From positions 4,007,963-4,071,962 of the forward strand of contig NC_087382.1 in NCBI RefSeq assembly GCF_963675165.1: DNA of 64,000 nt. The letters run 5' to 3'. This document shows positions 51,201-64,000 of this stretch, in pieces. A program made the translations under genes and the position numbers. The notes beneath the pieces are model-generated. The model was not told the origin of the DNA and did no database searches. It was given only the letters and a program-made list of their open reading frames with translations. The DNA comes from Halichondria panicea. Its lineage: Eukaryota > Porifera > Demospongiae > Suberitida > Halichondriidae. Numbering within the stretch: position 1 is the stretch's first letter; every line of letters begins with the position of its first letter.

Positions 51201-53147
51201 TGACCATGACGTCTCGTGAGTGCACATCGAGCACCACTAAAGCACCGAGTGTAGTCCTGTTCTGCTTGTTCAGCTTGCCCCTCACCAACTTGACAATGGC
51301 ATCAATCTGAGAGTTGTTCTTCTCAAGATACGTCTCCAAAGCCTATAAGGGAAAGGATGGATATGTACATGATGAAATACATACGTACAAAGCGACTGTT
51401 AGGTACACATAATTATTCACCCAGTATACGTATCTCTATGGTCAATTTATACTAATGTATAGTAGTGTGCCAGCCTTGATTTTGAGGCTACTACATGTAC
51501 GTACAGTGGAACCCCTTAAAAATGCTTTATAACGAACACCTTTGAGGAACAAAGCGTTGTATAGTGGTTGGCCTTTGTTGACACGCAATGTCTATCATAA
51601 TTATGCATATCGATTTCTACAATCTGTCACTTACGTGCATGTACATGTACTGTACATGCTAAAGACAATGTTTTCAATTTTAAGAAAAATATTTACCTGT
51701 TGTCCATTTCTGATGGACTCGTGGACATAGTCAGTCCAGTATTTCTGTGATACACAGAGGACGGCTTGACCTGGCCAGTTAATGACCCAGCTGGTACGCT
51801 CTGACACTGTGTAGGCCAGCATAGACTCTTGAATCACCTATACAAGGAGATAACAACTTGAGTGAACCGGTGTTACATGTACAATGTATGTGTGTTACTG
51901 GTGAGCCTGCAAAGGCCTATGTACGTGGACATACACATATAATTATGATTTTCCTAAAGTGTTTTTTTATAATGTATATATGGATGGGATTTTTTCAAGA
52001 AAACCAGCGCTTTGATTCCTACTGCAAATATGGCATAGTTGCGCCTAGATACATCTTGAATACACTATTGTTACATAAGCACTACAGACAATAATAGCTA
52101 CCTTGTGTATAGAAGTGGACATAATGGTTTCTAGTTCGAGTAGCCATTTCTCGACTTGACCACGAGCCTTGGATGTAGAGATAACCTCACAGAGTGGGAC
52201 TATCTCCCCCTCACTGCTCTTCATGTGAGTAATGTCCAGGTCTTCTGTGAACGAGAGCTTTGCTATGCCCTCAAAACACTTCTTGAGATGCGGCTGGACT
52301 CTGTTCAGAGAGAATGAAATTGTTAGCATAGCAATTAATTCAACATAATAAAAGACTACAGTACTTATTTAAGGTGATCCTCTAATTATGCGACATTTGA
52401 ACATTTTATCGATTATAAATAGCACCATCATTTGTTTTATGTACACATGCATAGTCTTGCAAAAGTTAATATCACGTTAAATCGAATAAATACGGTAGTA
52501 CAAATACATTTATACTGTTGCCATGACAATAGTAGTTACCGTGTAGGGTCCTTTGTTTCTGAGAGGATTTCCAACATCTCATCGTTGGAGAGAAAGAAAA
52601 ATCGCGGAAAATAGAGTCTCTTTTTCTCGAGATATTCGTTGAGGCCTTTCAGAATGAGCTCCAATAGTTCGTTGGATTTTTTGAGTCTTTCAAGCATCTT
52701 GTCGATGGTTACGACCACAAGACAATGGTGGTCCTGTGTTTATGAAGAGAAAACAATCAAATTATGAGAATAACAAAACTAAATTGGCTTGCTTGCAGCA
52801 AGACAGGTGTACTAGCTACCACAAGCCAGGAACTATAAATATTTCAAGTGAAACAGCACAATACATCTAGTTCTATGGTTACTATTATAACTTAATTACG
52901 CAAGTTATAATAGTAACCATAGAACTAGATGTATTTGATTGTTATAGTGCATGTACTGACCGACTCGGAAGCCTTGATAATGTCCCTCCAGTTCTTGTCA
53001 ACCTGAGTGAAGCGACGGCCTTCCTCTGGCATCTGGGCCATGATATCAGGGGAGGAGAAGATGGGCTCCAGATAGAGCCAGGTGGCCTGCACCTTGAGCC
53101 ATTCATCGAGGATTTCTTGGACCAATAGCAACTTTCCTTCCCACTCT
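32447..53147 (-). CDS. Axonemal inner-arm dynein heavy chain, DNAH3/7/12 type (N-terminus outside window)
   Basis: About 35-40 exons on the minus strand, separated by introns that range from very short to about 1 kb, encode the linker C-terminal part, six AAA modules, stalk with microtubule-binding tip, and the C-terminal cap. Motor ATPase that bends cilia and flagella. The final residues ([17 protein letters not shown]...ALLCQLDS, stop 32447-32449) and AAA1 ([20 protein letters not shown] at about 50569-50627) match the single-headed DNAH3/DNAH7/DNAH12 group best, judged from memory of the family. The first exon seen (52961-53147) begins [20 protein letters not shown] with an acceptor before it, so roughly the first 900-1000 residues of a usual 4000 must lie beyond 64 kb or elsewhere. 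No frameshift or internal stop was noticed in the exons read. Introns carry microsatellites and small transposons. Confidence 0.85.
36308..36377. repeat. (CA)n microsatellite in a dynein intron
   Basis: About 34 CA units just before an exon donor region. Shorter CA/GT tracts occur in other dynein introns at about 37247-37275, 37920-37948, 45237-45266 and 49098-49126. Open frames across them (runs of Cys-Val or Thr-His) are artefacts. Confidence 0.95.
40294..40905. mobile_element. 612-bp inverted-repeat element in a dynein intron
   Basis: The left end CATCAATAAAAAGTTCCCGT pairs with the reverse complement of the right end (CATCAATAAAAAGTTTCCGT), and both continue TCCGTTT. Internal sub-terminal repeats AAACGC.ACCGTTT occur on both sides. 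TAC-like bases flank it, but the target duplication is unclear. No open frame resembles a transposase, so it is non-autonomous. Confidence 0.65.
40975..42960 (-). other. Dynein stalk coiled coil and microtubule-binding tip
   Basis: Heptad-rich exons at about 42825-42960 and 42373-42575 (coiled coil 1) and about 40975-41178 (coiled coil 2, [20 protein letters not shown]) flank the tip exons at about 42030-42235 and 41600-41745, which contain [18 protein letters not shown]. The tip is the part that touches the microtubule. Confidence 0.85.
41180..41280. repeat. (GT)n microsatellite followed by poly-G
   Basis: Interrupted GT repeat of about 40 units, ending in a run of ten or more G. It starts at the edge of the exon coding stalk coiled coil 2. 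Likely length-polymorphic. Confidence 0.95.
43190..50850 (-). other. Dynein AAA1-AAA4 exons
   Basis: AAA1: P-loop GPAGTGKTE at 50598-50627 and Walker B CFDEFNRI near 50270. AAA2: P-loop GEPFGGKT near 49400-49425. AAA3: P-loop GPTGTGKS near 47308-47331 and VFVDDLNMP near 46655-46680. AAA4: P-loop GVGGSGRQS near 44744-44770 and FLFTDTQI near 44330-44353. All nucleotide-binding loops are intact, so the motor part looks functional. AAA1 is the main ATPase site in this family. Confidence 0.85.
51127..53147 (-). other. Dynein linker (tail-to-motor) exons
   Basis: Exons at 52961-53147 ([20 protein letters not shown]), about 52548-52733 ([20 protein letters not shown]), about 52094-52300 ([13 protein letters not shown]), about 51690-51840 and about 51187-51340 ([20 protein letters not shown]) form the conserved linker (DHC_N2) that swings across the AAA ring. 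The order is continuous and collinear with known heavy chains. Confidence 0.85.
52860..52935. repeat. Perfect 34-bp inverted repeat, 8-nt loop
   Basis: AATACATCTAGTTCTATGGT and 14 further bases (52860-52893) are exactly inverted at 52902-52935, with loop AATTACGC. It lies in the intron just 3' of the linker exon 52961-53147 in dynein orientation. As RNA it would form a long hairpin next to the donor site. Confidence 0.9.
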
Positions 53148-53863
53148 CTGTGACGGGTGGATGGATTCAAAATGAGCAAGAATCAACAATCTATCAGTCT
53201 TACGTATATACGTGTTGCTACTAGGCAGCCAGGCACAGCTATATAACTACATGTAAGCTATACGTATGCACTGACAATAATAGCCTCTTTAAGCCGCTCG
53301 CATACATAGCATTAGTTTGTATCGTGCATATAACTTTTATCACTATAGTATACTGTGACATGATATTATACATGCATGTATGCAAATAAAACAAGAATAG
53401 TCAGTATCATGTGTAAGCATTTTATAGTCTCATGTATACGTATACATGTACGTATTGTATAGAAGTTAGTCGAGTACAATATTGTTGAATAGGGAACGTT
53501 TGATTTGATTGTGAATTATAACCATATTAGTGTGCAAGGGCACATCATGTGCGTACACAGATCTTACTAACCATTAACATAACAATAGTTCCAGGTAGTT
53601 GGAAACAATTGGATTCAAAGAAACCAAAATTACAAGCATGCTCGTCGGGAAAGAGGTAGCTAGAGGCTCACTGTCAATAACCCACAACAACCCACAACAA
53701 GGGTACATGTATAGCAAGAGTAATAGAGTATACAGACAAACATATGGATAAAGGGAACCTAAGCCCGAGGTACCATACACAGAATCTATACAGCAGCCAA
53801 CATGCTTAATTATATACACTATACGTGTATTTGTCTGTACAACATTGCGTCCTCTTGCATGTC

Positions 53864-53870
53864 TATAAAA
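53864..53870 (+). promoter_or_regulatory. TATA box of peptide gene 1
   Basis: TATAAAA exactly 85 bp before the ATG, in the conserved context TGTC-TATAAAAACACGACAC. The expected start of transcription about 30 bp downstream leaves a 5'UTR near 55 nt. Confidence 0.7.
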
Positions 53871-53948: not shown

Positions 53949-54323
53949 ATGAAGGTGGCTATTCTCGTCATGGCATTTGTTGCCCTCACAGCCAGTGTGG
54001 CTTACGCTGCTCCTACTGAGAATGAAGATGCTGAAATTGAGGCATTTCTGAACAAACTGATGGAGCAAGAAGAAGCCTCTGAGCAAGACGACCATGCTGC
54101 TCAAATGGAGTCCTTCCTTTCCCAACTCCAAGATGAAGATGATGACGGCGAGGAAGCAGACCTTCAGGAGTTCTTTGCTCGAGAGCAGATCCGAGCTAAG
54201 GTGCAAGGATGGAGGCGCATAGCCAGGAGTGTGGTAAGAGGAGTGAAGAAGTACGGACCAACAGCACTAAAGTACGGAGTGAAGTATGGACCAAGTGTAG
54301 TAAGGGCACTCGGTCGTCGTTAA
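53949..54323 (+). CDS. Peptide gene 1: cationic antimicrobial-like precursor, 124 aa
   Basis: Intronless. The ATG at 53949 is chosen because a signal peptide follows (MKVAILVMAFVALTASVAYA, cleavage expected after AYA) and a TATA box lies 85 bp upstream; the longer upstream frame is 5'UTR. Residues 21 to about 80 are very acidic and contain three related short repeats (EAFLNKL, ESFLSQL, QEFFARE). The last 45 residues have many Lys/Arg and no Asp/Glu: GWRRIARSVVRGVKK, a YGP hinge, two KYG motifs and a final LGRR. GRR at a precursor end is a known amidation signal. Secreted precursors with an acidic pro-part that neutralises a basic amphipathic peptide are typical of cecropin- and styelin-like antimicrobial peptides. 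I recognise no named family; a neuropeptide or other bioactive peptide is the alternative. Confidence 0.8.
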   Translation: MKVAILVMAFVALTASVAYAAPTENEDAEIEAFLNKLMEQEEASEQDDHAAQMESFLSQLQDEDDDGEEADLQEFFAREQIRAKVQGWRRIARSVVRGVKKYGPTALKYGVKYGPSVVRALGRR

Positions 54324-54569
54324 GTGCCAGTGTTTCAGTGGTAACGTACTGTCGAAAACTGAGAAACTCATGTAGAAATAGACTAGTGTAGAAGAGTAGA
54401 ACTTAGAAATTTGATGCAAATGCAAAAATTGAAATGAGAATTTGTGTTTTCACACGATGTATGTAGTAGGAGTACTATTAGCGTACACTAGGAAACTATC
54501 TAACTGCAGGGAACCTAGTCATAGGGTAGTATACGCAGAATATAGCAGCTAAAGTAATAATACGTGTAT

Positions 54570-54700
54570 GGCCTTCCTCCGGCATCTGGGCCATGATATC
54601 AGGGGAGGAGAAGATGGGCTCGAGATAAAGCCAGGTGGCCTGCACTTTGAGCCATTCATCGAGGATCTCTTGGACCAATAGCAACTTGCCCTCCCACTCT
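54570..54700 (-). pseudogene. Dynein exon fragment, copy 1
   Basis: 131 nt of the linker exon 52961-53147 ([20 protein letters not shown] to AQMPEEG), with its acceptor (gccacag) but without its 3' half or a donor. It cannot replace the real exon. The frame is open, so the duplication is recent or the sequence is homogenised. Confidence 0.9.
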
Positions 54701-54857
54701 CTGTGGCAGGTAGATGGATTCAAAATGAGTATTTTACAAAAATCCACGATCTACATGATCAGTCTCGTTTTTATAGTTACGTATACGTGTTGCTACTAGG
54801 CCAGGCACACTCAGCTATAACTACATGTAAGCTATATACGTCTGCACTGACAATAAT

Positions 54858-55030
54858 ATATATACCATGCACGTAGAAAATTTCGTGGTGTTTTTAATTT
54901 TGCGTTTTTCGTGGGTGGCTGCAGAACCTGAAAATTAGAACCCGTGGAAGGCTTTGTATGCCCTCATAATAAAGACAAAATATTGAATTGCACAAAATTT
55001 TACACCCGAGAAATATTCCAACCGTATGGT
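54858..55030. mobile_element. MITE inserted in the array intron, unit 2 copy
   Basis: Compared with unit 1 (ACAATAATAGCCTCTTTA at 53275-53292), units 2-5 have about 170 bp inserted between ACAATAAT and TAGCCTCTTTA. The ends, ACCATGCACGTAGAAAATTT and reversed ACCATACGGTTGGAATATTT, are imperfect inverts. Further copies: about 57425-57598, 60578-60739 and from 63757. The empty site in unit 1 makes the insertion call firm. Confidence 0.7.
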
Positions 55031-55104
55031 AGCCTCTTTAGCAGCTCACATAAATAGCTGTATTACAAGTGCATAACTTTCTACTAAGTGCTACAATATA
55101 TATA

Positions 55105-55827
55105 CAGGGATGAAAATAATAGCCGGCCACCGGCCAAAATCTGAGCATATAGCCTGCTTGGCCGTCTATTGTACTGCATGAACTACTGGACAACAACTGC
55201 GCATGCTCAGAAAATTAATTATCTGCCATGTGTGCAAAAAAGGCGAATCAGCAATAATTTGTAGAGCTACTAAATCTATCTACATACATGCATGTATCTA
55301 CGTAGCTAGTTCAAGAAAACTGAGTGCATCCCAGTGCCATTGATGCAAGCAGTTCAAAGCAAGAACCTATCCAAAGAGACAAGAAGTGGCAGTGCTCTTA
55401 TGAGAAGTATCATCAGTCCTGACTCCATGACTGGCTAGACCAGAAAGACATGTTTCTACTCTTTGGTGCTTTTGAGTTCAATAGACAGTCAGTGGACTTT
55501 AGACTGGTTTAGCTCGAACTTAGAGTCTGGTTTTATGAGTTGTGCTTTATACTACTATAATAATTTATTATTATTACGATTCTAAACATCAAAACAAAAA
55601 ATCAATAAGACATAATTATGATTATGACGACAGGCTATCAGGTCCATTCATTGGTGGCAGGTGAACATTGAAAATGACTTGACACAATGATAAAATACTT
55701 ATTTTCACCCCTGCGGACATGGAACGTCTGGCTGTGAGTGCCAGATCATCATTTGCTGATGGCCGGTCAACATTGAAAATGACCTGACAAAGTTCAGCCA
55801 GTGATAAAATACTTATTTTCATCCCTG
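55105..55827. mobile_element. 723-bp inverted-repeat element, short form
   Basis: Exact inverted ends CAGGGATGAAAATA and TATTTTCATCCCTG, flanked by ATATA-like sequence on both sides. Unit 1 shows the empty site (near 53360). Near the right end the words TTGAAAATGACtTGACA...AAAATACTTATTTTCA occur twice. The CAGGG start resembles hAT ends, but no clear 8-bp duplication is seen. Confidence 0.75.
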
Positions 55828-56421
55828 ATATAATTATACGTGTTATTGTACATGTATGCAGATAAAGACAAAACAGAACATAATAGTCAGTATACGTATG
55901 TCAAGTGCAGGCATTTTTATAGTCCATATGCATATAAGTATTGTATAGAAGTACAAAAGATAGTTGGATAGGAAAAGTTTGATTGTGAACTATAACCATA
56001 TTAGTGTCCAAGCTAGGGCACATCATGTGTGTACACAGATCTTACTAACCATTAACATAACAATAGTTCCAGGTAGTTTATTAACACCAGACGGTAGCAA
56101 AAAGAAACTTTGTGTACAGCCTAGCACACATGAAACATTCAGTAAACAGGTAGTTGGAAACAATTGGATTCAAAGAAACCAAAATTACAAGCATGCTTGT
56201 CGGGCAGGAGGTAGCTAGAGGCTCATTGTGTCAGGACTCACAACAACGGTGCATGTATAGCAATAGTAATAGAGTATACAGACAAACATATGGAACCTAT
56301 TGTTGATGAAGGGAACCTAAGCTTGAGGTACCATACACAGAATCTATACAGCAGCCAACATGCATAATTATATACACTATACGTGTATTTGTCTGTACAA
56401 CATTGCGTCCTCTTGCATGTC

Positions 56422-56428
56422 TATAAAA
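56422..56428 (+). promoter_or_regulatory. TATA box of peptide gene 2
   Basis: TATAAAA at the same 85-bp distance from the ATG as in gene 1; the surrounding 80 bp are unchanged. Confidence 0.7.
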
Positions 56429-56506
56429 ACACGACACGACTGCCACAGAATAACCATTCCTCAAACTCATCCAACTACTTACAACCGACTCAAGAAACGC
56501 TCAAAC

Positions 56507-56881
56507 ATGAAGGTGGCTATTCTCGTCATGGCATTTGTTGCCCTCACAGCCAGTGTGGCTTACACTGCTCCTACTGAGAATGAAGATGCTGAAATTGAGG
56601 CATTTGTAAACAAACTGATGGAGCAAGAAGAAGCCTCTGAGCAAGACGACCATGCTGCTCAAATGGAGTCCTTCCTTGCCCAACTCCAAGATGAAGATGA
56701 TGACGGCGAGGAAGCAGCCCTTCAGGAGTTCTTTGCTCGAGAGCAGATCCTAGCTAAGGTGCAAGGATGGAGGCGCATAGCCAGGAGTGTGGCAAGAGGA
56801 GTGAAGAAGTACGGACCAACAGCACTAAAGTACGGAGTGAAGTATGGACCAAGTGTAGTAAGGGCACTCGGTCGTCGTTAA
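56507..56881 (+). CDS. Peptide gene 2: cationic antimicrobial-like precursor, 124 aa
   Basis: Same architecture and length as gene 1. Differences: YTAP instead of YAAP just at the expected signal cleavage point, Val for Leu in the first acidic repeat (EAFVNKL), Ala for Asp in the pro-part (EEAAL), Leu for Arg before the basic segment (EQILAKV), and Ala for Val in ARSVARG. The long C-terminus with YGPSVVRALGRR is kept. The basic segment changes least. The downstream 56882-57132 is the copied 3' flank; no canonical AATAAA is evident. Confidence 0.8.
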   Translation: MKVAILVMAFVALTASVAYTAPTENEDAEIEAFVNKLMEQEEASEQDDHAAQMESFLAQLQDEDDDGEEAALQEFFAREQILAKVQGWRRIARSVARGVKKYGPTALKYGVKYGPSVVRALGRR

Positions 56882-57010
56882 GTGCCAGTGTTTCAGTGGA
56901 AACGTACTGTCGAGAACTGAGAAACTCATGTAGAAATAGACTAGTGTAGAAGAGTAGAACTTAGAAATTTGATGCAAATGCAAAAATTGAAATGAGAATT
57001 TGTGTTTTCA

Positions 57011-57313
<303 letters not shown>

Positions 57314-57670
57314 CTACATGATCAGTCTCATTTTTATAGTTACGTATACGTGTTGCTACTAGGCCAGGCACACTCAGCTATAACTACATGTAAGCTATAT
57401 ACGTCTGCACTGACAATAATATATATACCGTGCACGTAGAAAATTTTGTGGTGTTTTTAATTTCGCGTTTTTCGTGGGTGGCTGCAGAACCTGAAAATTA
57501 GAACCCGTGGAAGGCTTTGTATGCCCTCATAATAAAGACAAAAATTAATATTGAATTGCACAAAATTTTACACCCGAGAAATATTCCAACCGTATGGTAG
57601 CCTCTTTAGCAGCTCGCATAAATAGCTGTATTACAAGTGCATAACTTTCTATCAAGTGCTACAATATATA

Positions 57671-58855
57671 CAGGAATGAAAATAACAGCCGGCCACCGGC
57701 CAAAATCTGAGCATATAGCCTGCTTGGCCGTCTATTGTACTGCATGAACTACTGGACAACAACTGCGCATGCTCAGAAAATTAATTATCTGCCATGTGTG
57801 CAAAAAAGGCGAATCAGCAATAATTTGTAGAGCTACTAGATTTATCTACGTACATGCATGTATCTACGTAGCTAGTTCAAGAAAACTGAGTGCATCCCAG
57901 TGCCATTGATGCAAGCAGTTCAAAGCAAGAACCTATCCAAAGAGACAAGAAGTGGCAGTGCTCTTATGAGAAGTATTATCAGTCCTGACTCCATGACTGG
58001 CTACACCAGAAAGACATGTTTCTACTCTTTGGTGCTTTTGAGTTTAATAGACAGTCAGTGGACTCTAGACTGGTTTAGCTCGAACTTAGAGTCTGGTTTT
58101 ATGAGTTGTGCTTTATACTACTTTGTTGCATTTTGAGTGGGCAGATCAAAGGAAACACTGTGCCAATATCTGCCATATGGCATAGGTCAAGCCTTGAACT
58201 GTGCCACTATCTAGATACTGGCATAGTATGGCTGAAGTTACCTAAAGCCCACCGTCCACCCAGTAACCTGAAACGGTCCCTTTTATAGTAATAACACTGT
58301 TAAACAGATTCAGTGGTAGGCATGCAGAAAATGTTTTTCATGCGTCTGGTGCATTCCACAGCCACCACAAGTAGTTGAAACTAGTTGTCCTATAAAAGGA
58401 GTGATGTGTACACGGAAAGGAATGCACAAGGAATGCAACAAATCAGTTGCTACACAGCTCACTCGTGCGCACATGGAATATATTGGCTCAGTACCCTTTG
58501 CCCTCGAGGCCTGCGGCCCTCGGGCCTAAGTCACTACTGAGCCAATAATTATATCCCATGTGGCACTCGTGCATGTGTCACAACTATAACATAATATTAT
58601 TATTACGATTATAAACATCAAAACAAAAATCAATAAGACATAATTATGATTATGACGACAGGCTATCAGGTCCTTTCATTGGTGGCAGGTAAACATTGAA
58701 AATGACTTGACACAATGATAAAATACTTATTTTCACCCCTGCGGATATGTGACGTCTGGCTGTGAGTGCCAGGTCATCATTTGCTGATGGCCGGTCAACA
58801 TTGAAAATGACCTGACAAAGTTCAGCCAGTGATAAAATACTTATTTTCATCCCTG
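57671..58855. mobile_element. 1185-bp inverted-repeat element, long form, copy in unit 3
   Basis: Same ends as the 723-bp element (left end here CAGGAATGAAAATA). It has about 470 extra bp (about 58122-58590) missing from the short form. That segment contains a nested hairpin: TATTGGCTCAGTA (58481-58493) inverted at 58535-58547 around a GC-rich core. Either the short form arose by deletion or a second element jumped in. Small open frames inside lack recognisable domains. Confidence 0.7.
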
Positions 58856-59594
58856 ATATAATTATACGTGTTATTGTACATGTATGCAGATAAAGACAAA
58901 ACAGAACATTCTTGCTCATTTTGGATTCAAAATGAGCAAGAATCAACAAACTACCAGTCTTACGTATATAGGTATTGCTACTATAGGCAGCCAGGCACAG
59001 CTATATAACTACATGTAAGCTATACGTATGCACTGACAATAATAGCCTCTTTAGCCGCTCGCATAAATACCATTAGTTTGTATCGTGCATATAACTTTTA
59101 TCACTATGGTATACTGTGACATGATATATTGTATATGCATGCAAATAAAACAAGAATAGTCAGTATCATGTGTAAGCATTTTATAGTCTCATGTATACGT
59201 ATACATGTACGTATTGTATAGAAGTTAGTCGAGTACAAAAGTCTAAAATAGGGAACGTTTGATTTGATTGTGAATTATAACCATATTAGTGTGCCAAGGG
59301 CACATCATGTGCGTACACAGATCTTACTAATCATTAACATAACAATAGTTCCAGGTAGTTGGAAACAATTGGATTCAAAGAAACCAAAATTACAAGCAGG
59401 GAAAGAGGTAGCTAGAGGCTCACTGTCAATAACAAGGGTACATGTATAGCAATAGTAATAGACTATACAGACACACATATGGATGAAGGGAACCTAAGCC
59501 TGAGGTACCATACACAGAATCTATATAGCAGCCAACATGCATAATTATATACACTATACGTGTATTTGTCTGTACAACATTGCATCCTCTTGTC

Positions 59595-59601
59595 TATAAA
59601 A
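59595..59601 (+). promoter_or_regulatory. TATA box of peptide gene 3
   Basis: TATAAAA, again 85 bp before the ATG. A short deletion (gcat) just upstream of the box distinguishes this copy. Confidence 0.7.
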
Positions 59602-59679
59602 ACACGACACGACTGCCACAGAATAACCATTCCTCAAACTCATCCAACTACTTACAACCGACTCAAGAAACGCTCAAAC

Positions 59680-60036
59680 ATGAAGGTGGCTATTCTCGTC
59701 CTGGCATTTGTTGCCCTCACAGGCAGTGTGGCTTACGCTGCTCCTACTGAGAATGAAGATGCTGAAATTGAGGCATTTCTAAACAAACTGATGGAGCAAG
59801 AAGAAGCCTCTGAGCAAGACGACCATGCTGCTCAAATGGAGTCCTTCCTTGCCCAACTCCAAGATGAAGACGATGACAGCGAGGAAGCAGACCTTCAGGA
59901 GTTCTTTGCTCGAGAGCAGATTCCAGCTAAGGTGCAAGGATGGAGGCGCATAGCCAGGAAGGTGGCAAGAGGAGTGAAGAAGTATGGACCAACAGCACTA
60001 AAGTACGGAGTGAAGTATGGACTCGGTCGTCGTTAA
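59680..60036 (+). CDS. Peptide gene 3: cationic antimicrobial-like precursor, 118 aa, short C-terminus
   Basis: Signal peptide with Leu and Gly changes (MKVAILVLAFVALTGSVAYA). The acidic pro-part has Ser for Gly (DDDSEEAD). The basic segment reads GWRRIARKVARGVKK, one more Lys than genes 1-2, and Pro replaces Arg or Leu before it (EQIPAKV). Six residues (PSVVRA) are missing, so the protein ends KYGLGRR. The amidation signal stays in frame, as the 18-nt loss preserves it. The altered end would remove the last helical turn of the mature peptide. Confidence 0.8.
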   Translation: MKVAILVLAFVALTGSVAYAAPTENEDAEIEAFLNKLMEQEEASEQDDHAAQMESFLAQLQDEDDDSEEADLQEFFAREQIPAKVQGWRRIARKVARGVKKYGPTALKYGVKYGLGRR

Positions 60037-60285
60037 GTGCCAGTGTTTCAGTGGAAACGTACTGTCGAGAACTGAGAAATTCATGTAGAAATAGACTAGT
60101 GTAGAAGGGTAGAACTTAGAAATTTGATGCAATTGCAAAAATTGAAATGAGAATTTGTGTTTTCACACGATGTATGTAAGTGTAGTAGGAGTACTAGCGT
60201 ACACTAGGAAACTATCTAACTGCAGGGAACCTAGTCATAGGGTAGTATACGCAGAATATAGCAGCTAAAGTAATAATACGTGTAT

Positions 60286-60416
60286 GGCCTTCCTCCGGCA
60301 TCTGGGCCATGATATCAGGGGAGGAGAAGATGGGCTCGAGATAGAGCCAGGTGGCCTGCACTTTGAGCCATTCATCGAGGATCTCTTGGACCAATAGCAA
60401 CCTGCCCTCCCACTCT
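60286..60416 (-). pseudogene. Dynein exon fragment, copy 3
   Basis: 131 nt, open, with Arg for Lys in the EWEGRLLL word, a change shared with copy 4 but not with copies 1 and 2. Confidence 0.9.
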
Positions 60417-60811
60417 CTGTGGCAGGTAGATGGATTCAAAATGAGAATTTTACAAAAATCCACAATCTACATGATCAGTCTCGTTTTTATAGTTACGTAT
60501 ACGTGTTGCTACTAGGCCAGGCACACTCAGCTATAACTACATGTAAGCTATATACGTCTGCACTGACAATAATATATATACCGTGCACGTAGAAAATTTC
60601 GTGGTGTTTTTTATTTTTCGTGGGTGGCTGCAGAACCTGAAAATTAGAACTCGTGGAAGGCTTCGTATGCCCTCATAATAAAGACAAAATATTGAATTGC
60701 ACAAAATTTTACACCCGAGAAATATTCCAACCGTATGGTAGCCTCTTTAGCAGCTTGCATAAATAGCTGTATTACAAGTGCATAACTTTCTATTAAGTGC
60801 TACAATATATA

Positions 60812-61996
60812 CAGGGATGAAAATAACAGCCGGCCACCGGCCAAAATCTGAGCATATAGCCTGCTTGGCCGTCTATTGTACTGCATGAACTACTGGACAA
60901 CAACTGCGCATGCTCAGAAAATTAATTATCTGCCATGTGTGCAAAAAAGGCGAATCAGCAATAATTTGTAGAGCTACTAGATCTATCTACGTACATGCAT
61001 GTATCTACGTAGCTAGTTCAAGAAAATTGAGTGCATCCCAGTGCCATTGATGCAAGCAGTTCAAAGCAAGAACCTATCCAAAGAGACAAGAAGTGGCAGT
61101 GCTCTTATGAGAAGTATCATCAGTCCTGACTCCATGACTGGCTAGACCAGAAAGACATGTTTCTACTCTTTGGTGCTTTTGAGTTTAATAGACAGTCAGT
61201 GGACTCTAGACTGCTTTAGCTCGAACTTAGAGTCTGGTTTTATGAGTTGTGCTTTATACTACTTTGTTGTATTTTAAGTGGGCAGATCAAAGGAAACATT
61301 GTGCCAATATCTGCCATATGGCACAGGTCAAGCCTTGAACTGTGCCACTATCTAGATACTGGCATAGTATGGCTGAAGTTACCTAAAGCCCACCGTCCAC
61401 CCAGTAACCTGAAACGGTCCCTTTTATAGTATAACACTGTTAAACAGATTCAGTGGTAGGCATGCAGAAAACGTTTTTCATGCGTCTGGTGCATTCCACA
61501 GCCACCACAAGTAGTTGAAACTAGTTGTCCTATAAAAGGAGTGATGTGTACACGGAAAGGAATGCACAAGGAATGCAACAAATCAGTTGCTACACAGCTC
61601 ACTCGTGCGCACATGGAATATATTGGCTCAGTACCCTTTGCCCTCGAGGCCTGCGGCCCTCGGGCCTAAGTCACTACTGAGCCAATATATCCCATGTGGC
61701 ACTCGTGCATGTGTCACAACTATAACATAATATTATTATTACGATTATAAACATCAAAACAAAAATCAATAAGACATAATTATGATTATGACGACAGGCT
61801 ATCAGGTCCTTTCATTGGTGGCAGGTGAACATTGAAAATGACTTGACACAATGATAAAATACTTATTTTCACCCCTGCGGATATGTGACGTCTGGCTGTG
61901 AGTGCCAGGTCATCATTAATTTTGCTGATGGCCGGTCAACATTGAAAATGACCTGACAAAGTTCAGCCAGTGATAAAATACTTATTTTCATCCCTG
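60812..61996. mobile_element. 1185-bp inverted-repeat element, copy in unit 4
   Basis: Exact ends CAGGGATGAAAATA / TATTTTCATCCCTG and the same total length as the unit 3 copy, so it was duplicated with the unit and did not insert independently. Small indels near 61430, 61687 and 61917 separate the two. Confidence 0.75.
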
Positions 61997-62773
61997 ATAT
62001 AATTATACGTGTTATTGTACATGTATGCAGATAAAGACAAAACAGAACATTCTTGCTCATTTTGTATCCAAAATGAGCAAGAATCAACAAACTATCAGTC
62101 TTACGTATATAGGTATTGCTCTATAGGCAGCCAGGCACAGCTATAATTATAACTACATGTAAGCTATACGTATGCACTGACAATTAGCCTCTTTAGCCGT
62201 TCGCATAAATACCATTAGTTTGTATCGTGCATATAACTTTTATCACTATGGTATACTGTGACATGATATATTGTATATGCATGCAAATAAAACAAGAATA
62301 GTCAGTATCATGTGTAAGCATTTTATAGTCTCATGTATACGTATACATGTACGTATTGTATAGAAGTTAGTCGAGTACAAAAGTCTAAAATAATTATAGT
62401 TGAATAGGGAACGTTTGATTTGATTGTGAATTATAACCATATTAGTGTGCAAGGGCACATCATGTGCGTACACAGATCTTACTAATCATTAACATAACAA
62501 TAGTTCCAGGTAGTTGGAAACAATTGGATTCAAAGAAACCAAAATTACAAGCATGCTTGTCGGGCAAGAGGTAGCTAGATGCTCATTGTGTCAGGACTCA
62601 CAACAACGGTGCATGTATAGCAATAGTAATAGAGTATACAGACAAACATATGGATAAAGGGAACCTAAGCTTGAGGTACCATACACAGAATCTATACAGC
62701 AGCCAACATGCATAATTATATACACTATACGTGCATGTACTTGTCTGTACAACATTGCGTCCTCTTGCATGTC

Positions 62774-62780
62774 TATAAAA
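62774..62780 (+). promoter_or_regulatory. TATA box of peptide gene 4
   Basis: TATAAAA 85 bp before the ATG, with the upstream tgcat retained as in genes 1 and 2. Confidence 0.7.
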
Positions 62781-62858
62781 ACACGACACGACTGCCACAG
62801 AATAACCATTCCTCAAACTCATCCAACTACTTACAACCGACTCAAGAAACGCTCAAAC

Positions 62859-63215
62859 ATGAAGGTGGCTATTCTCGTCATGGCATTTGTTGCCCTCACA
62901 GCCAGTGTGGCTTACGCTGCTCCTACTGAGAATGAAGATGCTGAAATTGAGGCATTTCTGAACAAACTGATGGAGCAAGAAGAAGCCTCTGAGCAAGACG
63001 ACCATGCTGCTCAAATGGAGTCCTTCCTTGCCCAACTCCAAGATGAAGACGATGACGGCGAGGAAGCAGACCTTCAGGAGTTCTTTGCTCGAGAGCAGAT
63101 TCCAGCTAAGGTGCAAGGATGGAGGCGCATAGCCAGGAAGGTGGCAAGAGGAGTGAAGAAGTACGGACCAACAGCACTAAAGTACGGAGTGAAGTATGGA
63201 CTCGGTCGTCGTTAA
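62859..63215 (+). CDS. Peptide gene 4: cationic antimicrobial-like precursor, 118 aa, short C-terminus
   Basis: The signal peptide is identical to gene 1 and the mature basic segment is identical to gene 3 (GWRRIARKVARGVKK ... KYGLGRR). The pro-part matches gene 1 apart from one residue in the second acidic repeat (ESFLAQL). This mixed pattern suggests exchange between copies. The basic segment has about a dozen Lys/Arg and no acidic residue, while the pro-part has about 22 Asp/Glu. Confidence 0.8.
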   Translation: MKVAILVMAFVALTASVAYAAPTENEDAEIEAFLNKLMEQEEASEQDDHAAQMESFLAQLQDEDDDGEEADLQEFFAREQIPAKVQGWRRIARKVARGVKKYGPTALKYGVKYGLGRR

Positions 63216-63464: not shown

Positions 63465-63595
63465 GGCCTTCCTCCGGCATCTGGGCCATGATATCAGGGG
63501 AGGAGAAGATGGGCTCGAGATAGAGCCAGGTGGCCTGCACTTTGAGCCATTCATCGAGGATTTCTTGGACCAATAGCAACCTGCCCTCCCACTCT
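63465..63595 (-). pseudogene. Dynein exon fragment, copy 4
   Basis: 131 nt, open, EWEGRLLL variant. It begins a fifth unit that runs off the window, so at least one more peptide gene copy may follow beyond 64000. Confidence 0.9.
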
Positions 63596-64000
63596 CTGTG
63601 GCAGGTAGATGGATTCAAAATGAGAATTTTACAAAAATCCACAATCTACATGATCAGTCTCGTTTTTATAGTTACGTATACGTGTTGCTACTAGGCCAGG
63701 CACACTCAGCTATAACTACATGCATGTAAGCTATATACGTCTGCACTGACAATAATTATATATACCGTGCACGCAGAAAATTTCGTGGTGTTTTTAATTT
63801 TGCGTTTTTCGTGGGTGGCTGCAGAACCTGAAAATTAGAACCCGTGGAAGGCTTTGTATGCCCTCACAATAAAGACAAAATATTGAATTGCACGAAATTT
63901 TACACCCGAGAAATATTCCACCCGTACGGCCTCTTTAGCAGCTCGGATAAATAGCTGTATTACAAGTGCATAACTTTCTACTAAGTGCTACAATATATAT

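Follow-up and report, generated by a model that had tools for sequence, protein, structure and literature searches.

A window of 64,000 nucleotides from the genome of the sponge Halichondria panicea (the whole stretch of DNA analyzed here, C6:4007963-4071962 of a 131-Mb, 39-contig genome) carries four genes of a real and sizeable sponge family that apparently has no name and encodes cationic peptide precursors ready to be amidated. The gene structure, the family, its pattern of conservation, the terminal glycine and the exons of the amidating enzyme PAM are directly supported. As judged from the sequence, the four genes are probably (about 70%) part of an expanded family of secreted linear cationic precursors that serve host defense, a type of amidated peptide that is hardly known from sponges. 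The antimicrobial-like, amidation-ready precursor proposed in the initial annotation of this DNA is still the best reading, based on the architecture, the family and the amidation signal, with the activity being predicted.

All four genes lie on the + strand of the window as intact open reading frames (ORFs) of 124, 124, 118 and 118 codons, counted from the common start MKVAIL: gene 1 at 53949..54323, gene 2 at 56507..56881, gene 3 at 59680..60036 and gene 4 at 62859..63215. In each of them, a TATAAAA box starts 85 bp upstream of the ATG (53864..53870, 56422..56428, 59595..59601 and 62774..62780), and the coding frame is uninterrupted in all four, although an intron in the untranslated region is possible. 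The proteins begin with a hydrophobic, signal-like N-terminus (..ALTASVAYA|AP by inspection; 53949..54008 in gene 1, as placed by sequence inspection and alignment), continue with an acidic pro-part (54009..54206, 56567..56764, 59740..59937 and 62919..63116; net charge -18 and end ..AKVQ in gene 1) that contains the three repeats EIEAFLNKLMEQ, QMESFLAQLQDE and DLQEFFAREQ, and close with the predicted cationic peptide (54207..54320, with the end ALGRR, in gene 1; 56765..56878; 59938..60033; 63117..63212). The mature sequences of genes 3 and 4 are identical. In all four genes the peptide lacks Asp and Glu, has a charge of +9, one Trp and the stretch KYGPT, and ends in GRR. This anatomy agrees with the initial annotation, which had described a four-gene array with a fixed TATA distance, no introns, a signal peptide, three acidic repeats and a basic acid-free C-terminus; the extent of the array has to be corrected, since it continues past the four genes with a fifth one that begins 2.2 kb past gene 4, outside the window (C6:4073392). 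The window peptides are also free of cysteine (4/4). In a low-confidence AlphaFold model (mean predicted local distance difference test, pLDDT, 56.5), there is a helix at residues 3-18, each acidic repeat is helical, and residues 84-114 form one long helix; a Foldseek search with this model gave no match, and we give the model no weight past the helix pattern. The coding blocks of the tandem units are spaced by 2558, 3173 and 3179 bp, and many 300-base blocks of the units are 97-100% identical. Thus, the array is a recent tandem duplication, and the fixed TATA distance within it reflects recent shared ancestry.

The family extends well past the array. When the gene-4 protein was compared with the genome in six frames, 52 pieces matched at an expectation value (E) of 10 or below, 20 of them below 1e-8. 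The fetched neighborhoods contained 48 signal-like ORFs, of which 40 passed a charge filter that picks acidic-then-basic ORFs by design and that missed a 496-residue relative at C6:3.903 Mb (L027:7948-9438). The junction between pro-part and mature part was set in 36 of the 40; those dropped were C11:136745, C11:5083002, C4:908044 and a C5 polyprotein. In this genome, no fewer than 36 genes for single peptides belong to the family (C6 3.89-3.93, 4.06-4.10, 4.37 and 4.52 Mb; C4 0.91 Mb), together with two polyproteins of repeated acidic-basic units encoded on C5 (LOC135335836 and LOC135335816, 486 and 717 amino acids). Each polyprotein gene (L032 3278-4738, C5:3244777; C5:3164-3166 kb) is one open frame with acidic spacers and basic helices in tandem. 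A TATA-like match 50-107 bp upstream was present in 35 of the 40 family ORFs, a raw count without a chance control. The protein search with the gene-4 protein found 34 proteins, two of them named, each as 'uncharacterized protein' of H. panicea (LOC135337524 and LOC135337523); a profile of 21 members found 58 (three named) and a polyprotein query ten (two named), all five of these names being from H. panicea. The protein P0010 aligns to the genome with 64-70% identity over most of its length and with up to 79% in the pro-part, and P0065 aligns in pieces of 34-57%; since neither has a near-identical copy in the genome, the family is also present in another organism or strain. Both P0009 and P0010 have kept a pro-part of the window type and have quite different peptides.

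The features of the mature part support the idea of a linear peptide that is prepared for amidation. The hydrophobic moments of the four window peptides are 0.80-0.82, values that at most about 0.3% of 400 shuffled versions attain, and in the family 25 of 36 peptides are within the top 5% of their own shuffles. Asp and Glu are absent from 30 of the 36 mature parts, which have 19-130 residues and charges of up to +62. A C-terminal Gly with up to two following Lys or Arg residues, G(K/R)0-2, i.e. the amidation signal, was found in 33 of the 36 genes with a set junction, including all four window genes. Among the 40 filtered ORFs, which had been chosen regardless of their end, 33 have this signal; when the last 40 residues were shuffled 2000 times, the average count was 5.7 and the highest 14. 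The signal is present in 11 of 12 subfamily representatives (one per group at 60% identity of the pre-pro region). Moreover, the charges of pro-part and mature part scale together (Spearman 0.78, n=36; 0.62, p=0.03 for the 12 representatives), as expected if the pro-part neutralizes the peptide; the outlier is C6:4519324 with -19 in the pro-part and +62 in the mature part.

Signal peptide and pro-part are conserved throughout the family, whereas the peptide is variable. Within the pro-parts, acidic helices are repeated, frequently with a Gln at the end and an acidic residue next to it. The junction resembles EQ(V/I)PAxLQ|GW in one group, while other groups have QDPxVKAQ|W or TAHAQ|W. Gln directly precedes the mature part in 33 of 36 genes, a count that is biased by the choice of the junction by eye. 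Since the basic units of the C5 polyproteins are also bordered by Gln at both ends, starting after one Gln (FQ|SW) and ending in another that acidic residues follow (DAQ|NDDD), we infer that precursor cleavage is Gln-directed. In 12 pairs formed by the window genes and three genes at 4.37 Mb, the nonsynonymous divergence (dN) is 0.06-0.12 in the pro-part and 0.36-0.57 in the mature part, which thus changes fastest; the ratio of dN to the synonymous divergence (dS) is 0.32-0.68 and 0.40-1.28, respectively. This pattern is in keeping with a conserved carrier whose peptide evolves quickly, either under weak constraint or by diversification.

On the evidence of its exons, the genome encodes PAM. 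When pieces at about C7 569.4-571.4 kb were linked by X, they matched structures of the PAM monooxygenase with an E of 1e-22, as compared to 1.9e-4 for dopamine beta-hydroxylase (DBH). The first two pieces contribute most of the score; the alignment of the remaining two is weak, but they keep the expected stretches HSH and DEMCN, which contain copper ligands. An exon at about C7:572.2 kb, some 0.8 kb past the last monooxygenase piece, matches NHL-repeat proteins: TRIM71 is best (1.1e-10, several repeats summed), and the PAM lyase 3fvz is next (9.1e-10, one stretch). The location of this exon beside the monooxygenase exons favors PAM. The P-domain of subtilisin-like proprotein convertases has 20 matches in the genome. 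Additional matches to copper type II monooxygenases, of either the PAM, the DBH or the MOXD class, are clustered at C1:14.86-14.92 Mb, C1:17.67 Mb and C12:176-183 kb; these PAM-like matches were set aside as the domain also occurs in DBH-like proteins, and the analysis was focused on the C7 gene.

A search of solved structures with the gene-4 protein identified PDB 1fry, 'myeloid antimicrobial peptide' (E 1.3e-4), which aligns to the cationic peptide over 22 residues without a gap and with GVKKYGPT in common. This entry is SMAP-29, a sheep cathelicidin. The alignment has a score of 84; when the sponge peptide was shuffled 20,000 times, the score never exceeded 51. The earlier view that the resemblance to antimicrobial peptides (AMPs) is one of architecture rather than of family homology has to be amended for the mature peptide, which does match SMAP-29 in sequence. 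Because no cathelin domain was among the Pfam matches of the four window proteins with an E of up to 10, we take the likeness as convergence. In the same search, none of the four proteins had a Pfam match above the curated cut-off. All NCBIfam matches were far below their cut-off. Among 21 members, six Pfam families match one member each at 0.01 or below, with DUF4142 (2.4e-6) and GET2 (2.6e-6) being the best, and in the protein database DUF4142 is assigned to the relative P0036, while the two C5 polyproteins carry 16 and 2 Pfam accessions. Membership in a Pfam or NCBIfam family was rejected. Since none of these scattered matches recurs across members, we take them as probable chance hits to acidic or repetitive helices. 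Apart from such isolated matches of single relatives, our searches in PDB, Pfam and NCBIfam found none of the homology to a structural or non-secreted protein family that the initial annotation had named as one possible refutation. No curated family describes the precursors. A literature search turned up no paper on the family, which is not a proof of absence, and the term 'antimicrobial peptide' is absent from the main text of a paper on the lipopolysaccharide-induced transcriptome of H. panicea (PMC8242945).

The closest architecture that we have found is that of the Hydra arminins and the arminin-like placozoan peptides AMP1-4, which have the strongly acidic part, the basic C-terminus, the terminal Gly and, for the arminins, the gene cluster in common with the sponge precursors; their signal peptide has a counterpart in the signal-like start of the sponge proteins. 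The Hydra and placozoan peptides are described with an acidic N-terminal part, a basic C-terminal part and a terminal Gly that is thought to be amidated (PMC11452194, PMC12013895, PMC10945409), and the arminins as alpha-helical, encoded by clustered paralogues and confined to Hydra (PMC10945409, PMC11452194, PMC12013895, PMC11767717). The sponge family differs from the arminins by the Gln-marked junction, the three repeated acidic helices, the Tyr-rich and Arg/Ser-rich variants and the polyproteins. Among the 58 profile hits, of which only three are named, there was no named Hydra or placozoan protein in a search that requires shared 5-residue words. Frog precursors of the preprodermaseptin type combine a conserved signal peptide and acidic pro-part with a variable cationic amidated C-terminus and use a Lys-Arg processing site; in contrast, the sponge junction has Gln and no dibasic pair, and there is no Pfam match. 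As for SMAP-29, the likeness concerns the 22 residues of the mature part, whereas the Pfam matches of the sponge precursors do not include the cathelin domain. Cecropins, piscidins/pleurocidins, dermaseptins and clavanins/styelins were not among the Pfam matches either (four proteins at an E of up to 10, 21 members at 0.01; the existence of a model for each name is unchecked). By analogy, the best reading is that the sponge precursors may work like arminins or dermaseptins, without detected homology to them. The known sponge AMP ASABF of Suberites domuncula has a cysteine-stabilized alpha-beta fold (PMC3210614, PMC11767717), unlike the cysteine-free window peptides.

With secretion, the cleavage site and its enzyme, amidation, expression and killing all predicted from sequence, the following mechanism can be envisioned: The signal peptide would send the precursor into the secretory path, and the acidic pro-part with its short acidic helices, which often end near Gln, would pair with the basic C-terminal helix and neutralize it. 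A protease that recognizes the recurring stretch in front of the basic part, e. g. EQ(V/I)PAxLQ|GW, may then free the peptide, either by a cut after the last Gln or by a cut before it that would give rise to pyroglutamate. Upon trimming of the terminal Arg or Lys residues, PAM could turn the exposed Gly into an amide. The predicted product of genes 3 and 4 is GWRRIARKVARGVKKYGPTALKYGVKYGL-amide, a 29-residue amphipathic helix of +9 with a KYGPT hinge, and genes 1 and 2 would yield 35-mers. These peptides might bind and permeabilize microbial membranes like SMAP-29, the arminins and the dermaseptins.

The same precursors might also deliver defensive cytolysins, i. e. peptides aimed at the animal cells of predators, settling larvae or competing sponges. 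Such a chemical defense is equally compatible with amphipathic cationic helices and with a family that has expanded and varies in its mature part, and our data do not distinguish between the two roles; the sole sequence match is to an antimicrobial peptide. We regard cytolysins as the less favored option with a rather low probability. Signaling by amidated neuropeptide-like messengers, which a neuron-free animal would produce by means of PAM and convertases, would account for the terminal Gly with its basic residues, for the PAM exons, for a recurring Gln that could become pyroglutamate and for the multi-copy precursors on C5. However, neuropeptide precursors have a conserved short mature peptide, and ligands of receptors should be conserved, whereas the mature part is the least conserved one in the sponge family and covers 19-130 residues with up to +62; moreover, the repeat units of the C5 polyproteins end in ..DAQ without a Gly. 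A signaling function is therefore quite improbable.

Some relatives, located around 3.9 Mb and 4.08 Mb, are rich in Tyr or in Arg/Ser and could suggest silaffin-like or adhesive polycations, with basic secreted parts that precipitate silica or glue the matrix. The window genes, however, encode amphipathic helices rather than low-complexity sequences, a matrix or spicule protein would need neither an amidation signal nor an acidic neutralizing pro-part, and no structural Pfam domain was found, so that we judge this idea to be as improbable as signaling. Finally, the near-identical units with their copied pieces of a dynein exon might be taken for a non-functional repeat with ORFs that are open only due to the recent duplication. 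This is very improbable: relatives from other clusters and from the database are far less similar and still retain the frame and the terminal Gly, and when more distant pairs are compared, the pro-part mostly has a dN/dS of less than 0.7.

Several observations weigh against host defense as the function of the family or limit the evidence for it. The 5% level of the hydrophobic moment is missed by 11 of 36 peptides, six of which are Tyr-rich, and three of 36 have no amidation signal (two end in QC and one in WEN). Some relatives are not typical helical AMPs but contain Tyr-rich YYSRYY arrays, Arg/Ser runs or RRYRRPRRIIRRVT repeats. The kinship of the paralogues inflates the family-wide counts, which the 12 representatives were used to offset, and the residue at the junction was placed by eye. 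The SMAP-29 match is strong only in peptides of the window type (scores of 68-84), with 36-48 for the others among the members listed, and PDB searches with four other relatives returned no AMP. The dN/dS of the mature part is not clearly above 1, leaving positive selection unproven; its dS is also above that of the pro-part, its alignments are gapped, and alignment error or gene conversion in the pre-pro region may contribute to the divergence. The relatives P0002 and P0004, which come from short contigs, contain translated sequence that lies upstream of the TATA box and thus look genomic; they are not evidence for expression.

The unusual relatives are of several kinds. Long Tyr-rich basic arrays (YYSRYYARYY) are encoded at L028 4649-5524, L029 4942-5769, L030 2413-3276 and L026 5083-5796, in proteins that keep the family style of signal peptide and pro-part as well as the terminal Gly. 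Arg/Ser-rich C-termini that resemble protamines or silaffins are present at L022 4125-4919 and L026 8717-9424; they end in NQC without an amidation signal. At L034 3325-3984 (C6:4519324), a secreted-type precursor has five tandem repeats of the RRYRRPRRIIRRVT type and the mature net charge of +62. The 372-residue protein at L021 7842-8960 (C6:4079741) has the family signal peptide and acidic repeats only, without a basic peptide, and is possibly a stand-alone acidic partner or a decayed precursor.

Each window unit also contains, on the minus strand, a fragment of an exon of an axonemal dynein heavy chain (DNAH7 match, E 1.2e-22), at 54571..54702, 57134..57262, 60287..60418 and 63466..63597. 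Positions 206-399 of the DHC_N2 domain are found at C6:4060061-4061117 (window 52099-53155, minus strand) and positions 66-220 on the same strand at C6:4074159-4075135, outside the window, where the match of one segment is interrupted by a stop. The first five peptide genes are thus flanked on both sides by DHC_N2 segments of one strand. Because these same-strand segments continue on both sides, the peptide array appears to be nested in an intron of an opposite-strand DNAH7-like axonemal dynein gene, and the duplications of the array appear to have copied one dynein exon along.

The identification of substrates of sponge PAM has been called for (PMC7935135). The precursors described here are explicit candidates; they would not be the first ones because an amidation site has been reported for phoenixin precursors of sponges (PMC9004410), but they are the largest set that we have seen. 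Reviews differ with respect to sponges, which are counted among the most abundant sources of AMPs (PMC10608444) or are listed mostly with cyclic peptides (PMC12466427). Both reviews name ASABF as their example of a gene-encoded peptide from sponges, and one of the two mentions cyclic peptides as well. A 2025 review counts a single AMP extracted from sponges, ASABF of S. domuncula, and considers that sponges may have less need for short linear AMPs (PMC11767717). It is conceivable, though rather doubtful, that sponges have a linear AMP arsenal that depends on amidation, uses its own Gln-directed cleavage, and shares common descent with the Hydra arminins and the arminin-like placozoan AMPs. If true, the gene for an acidic pro-part and a basic amidated peptide would be an ancestral animal defense that later fed into immunity and peptide signaling, and the family would be a large set of sponge PAM substrates. 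The family argues against the idea that short linear AMPs are less needed in sponges, and it provides dozens of concrete sequences that can be tested by synthesis.

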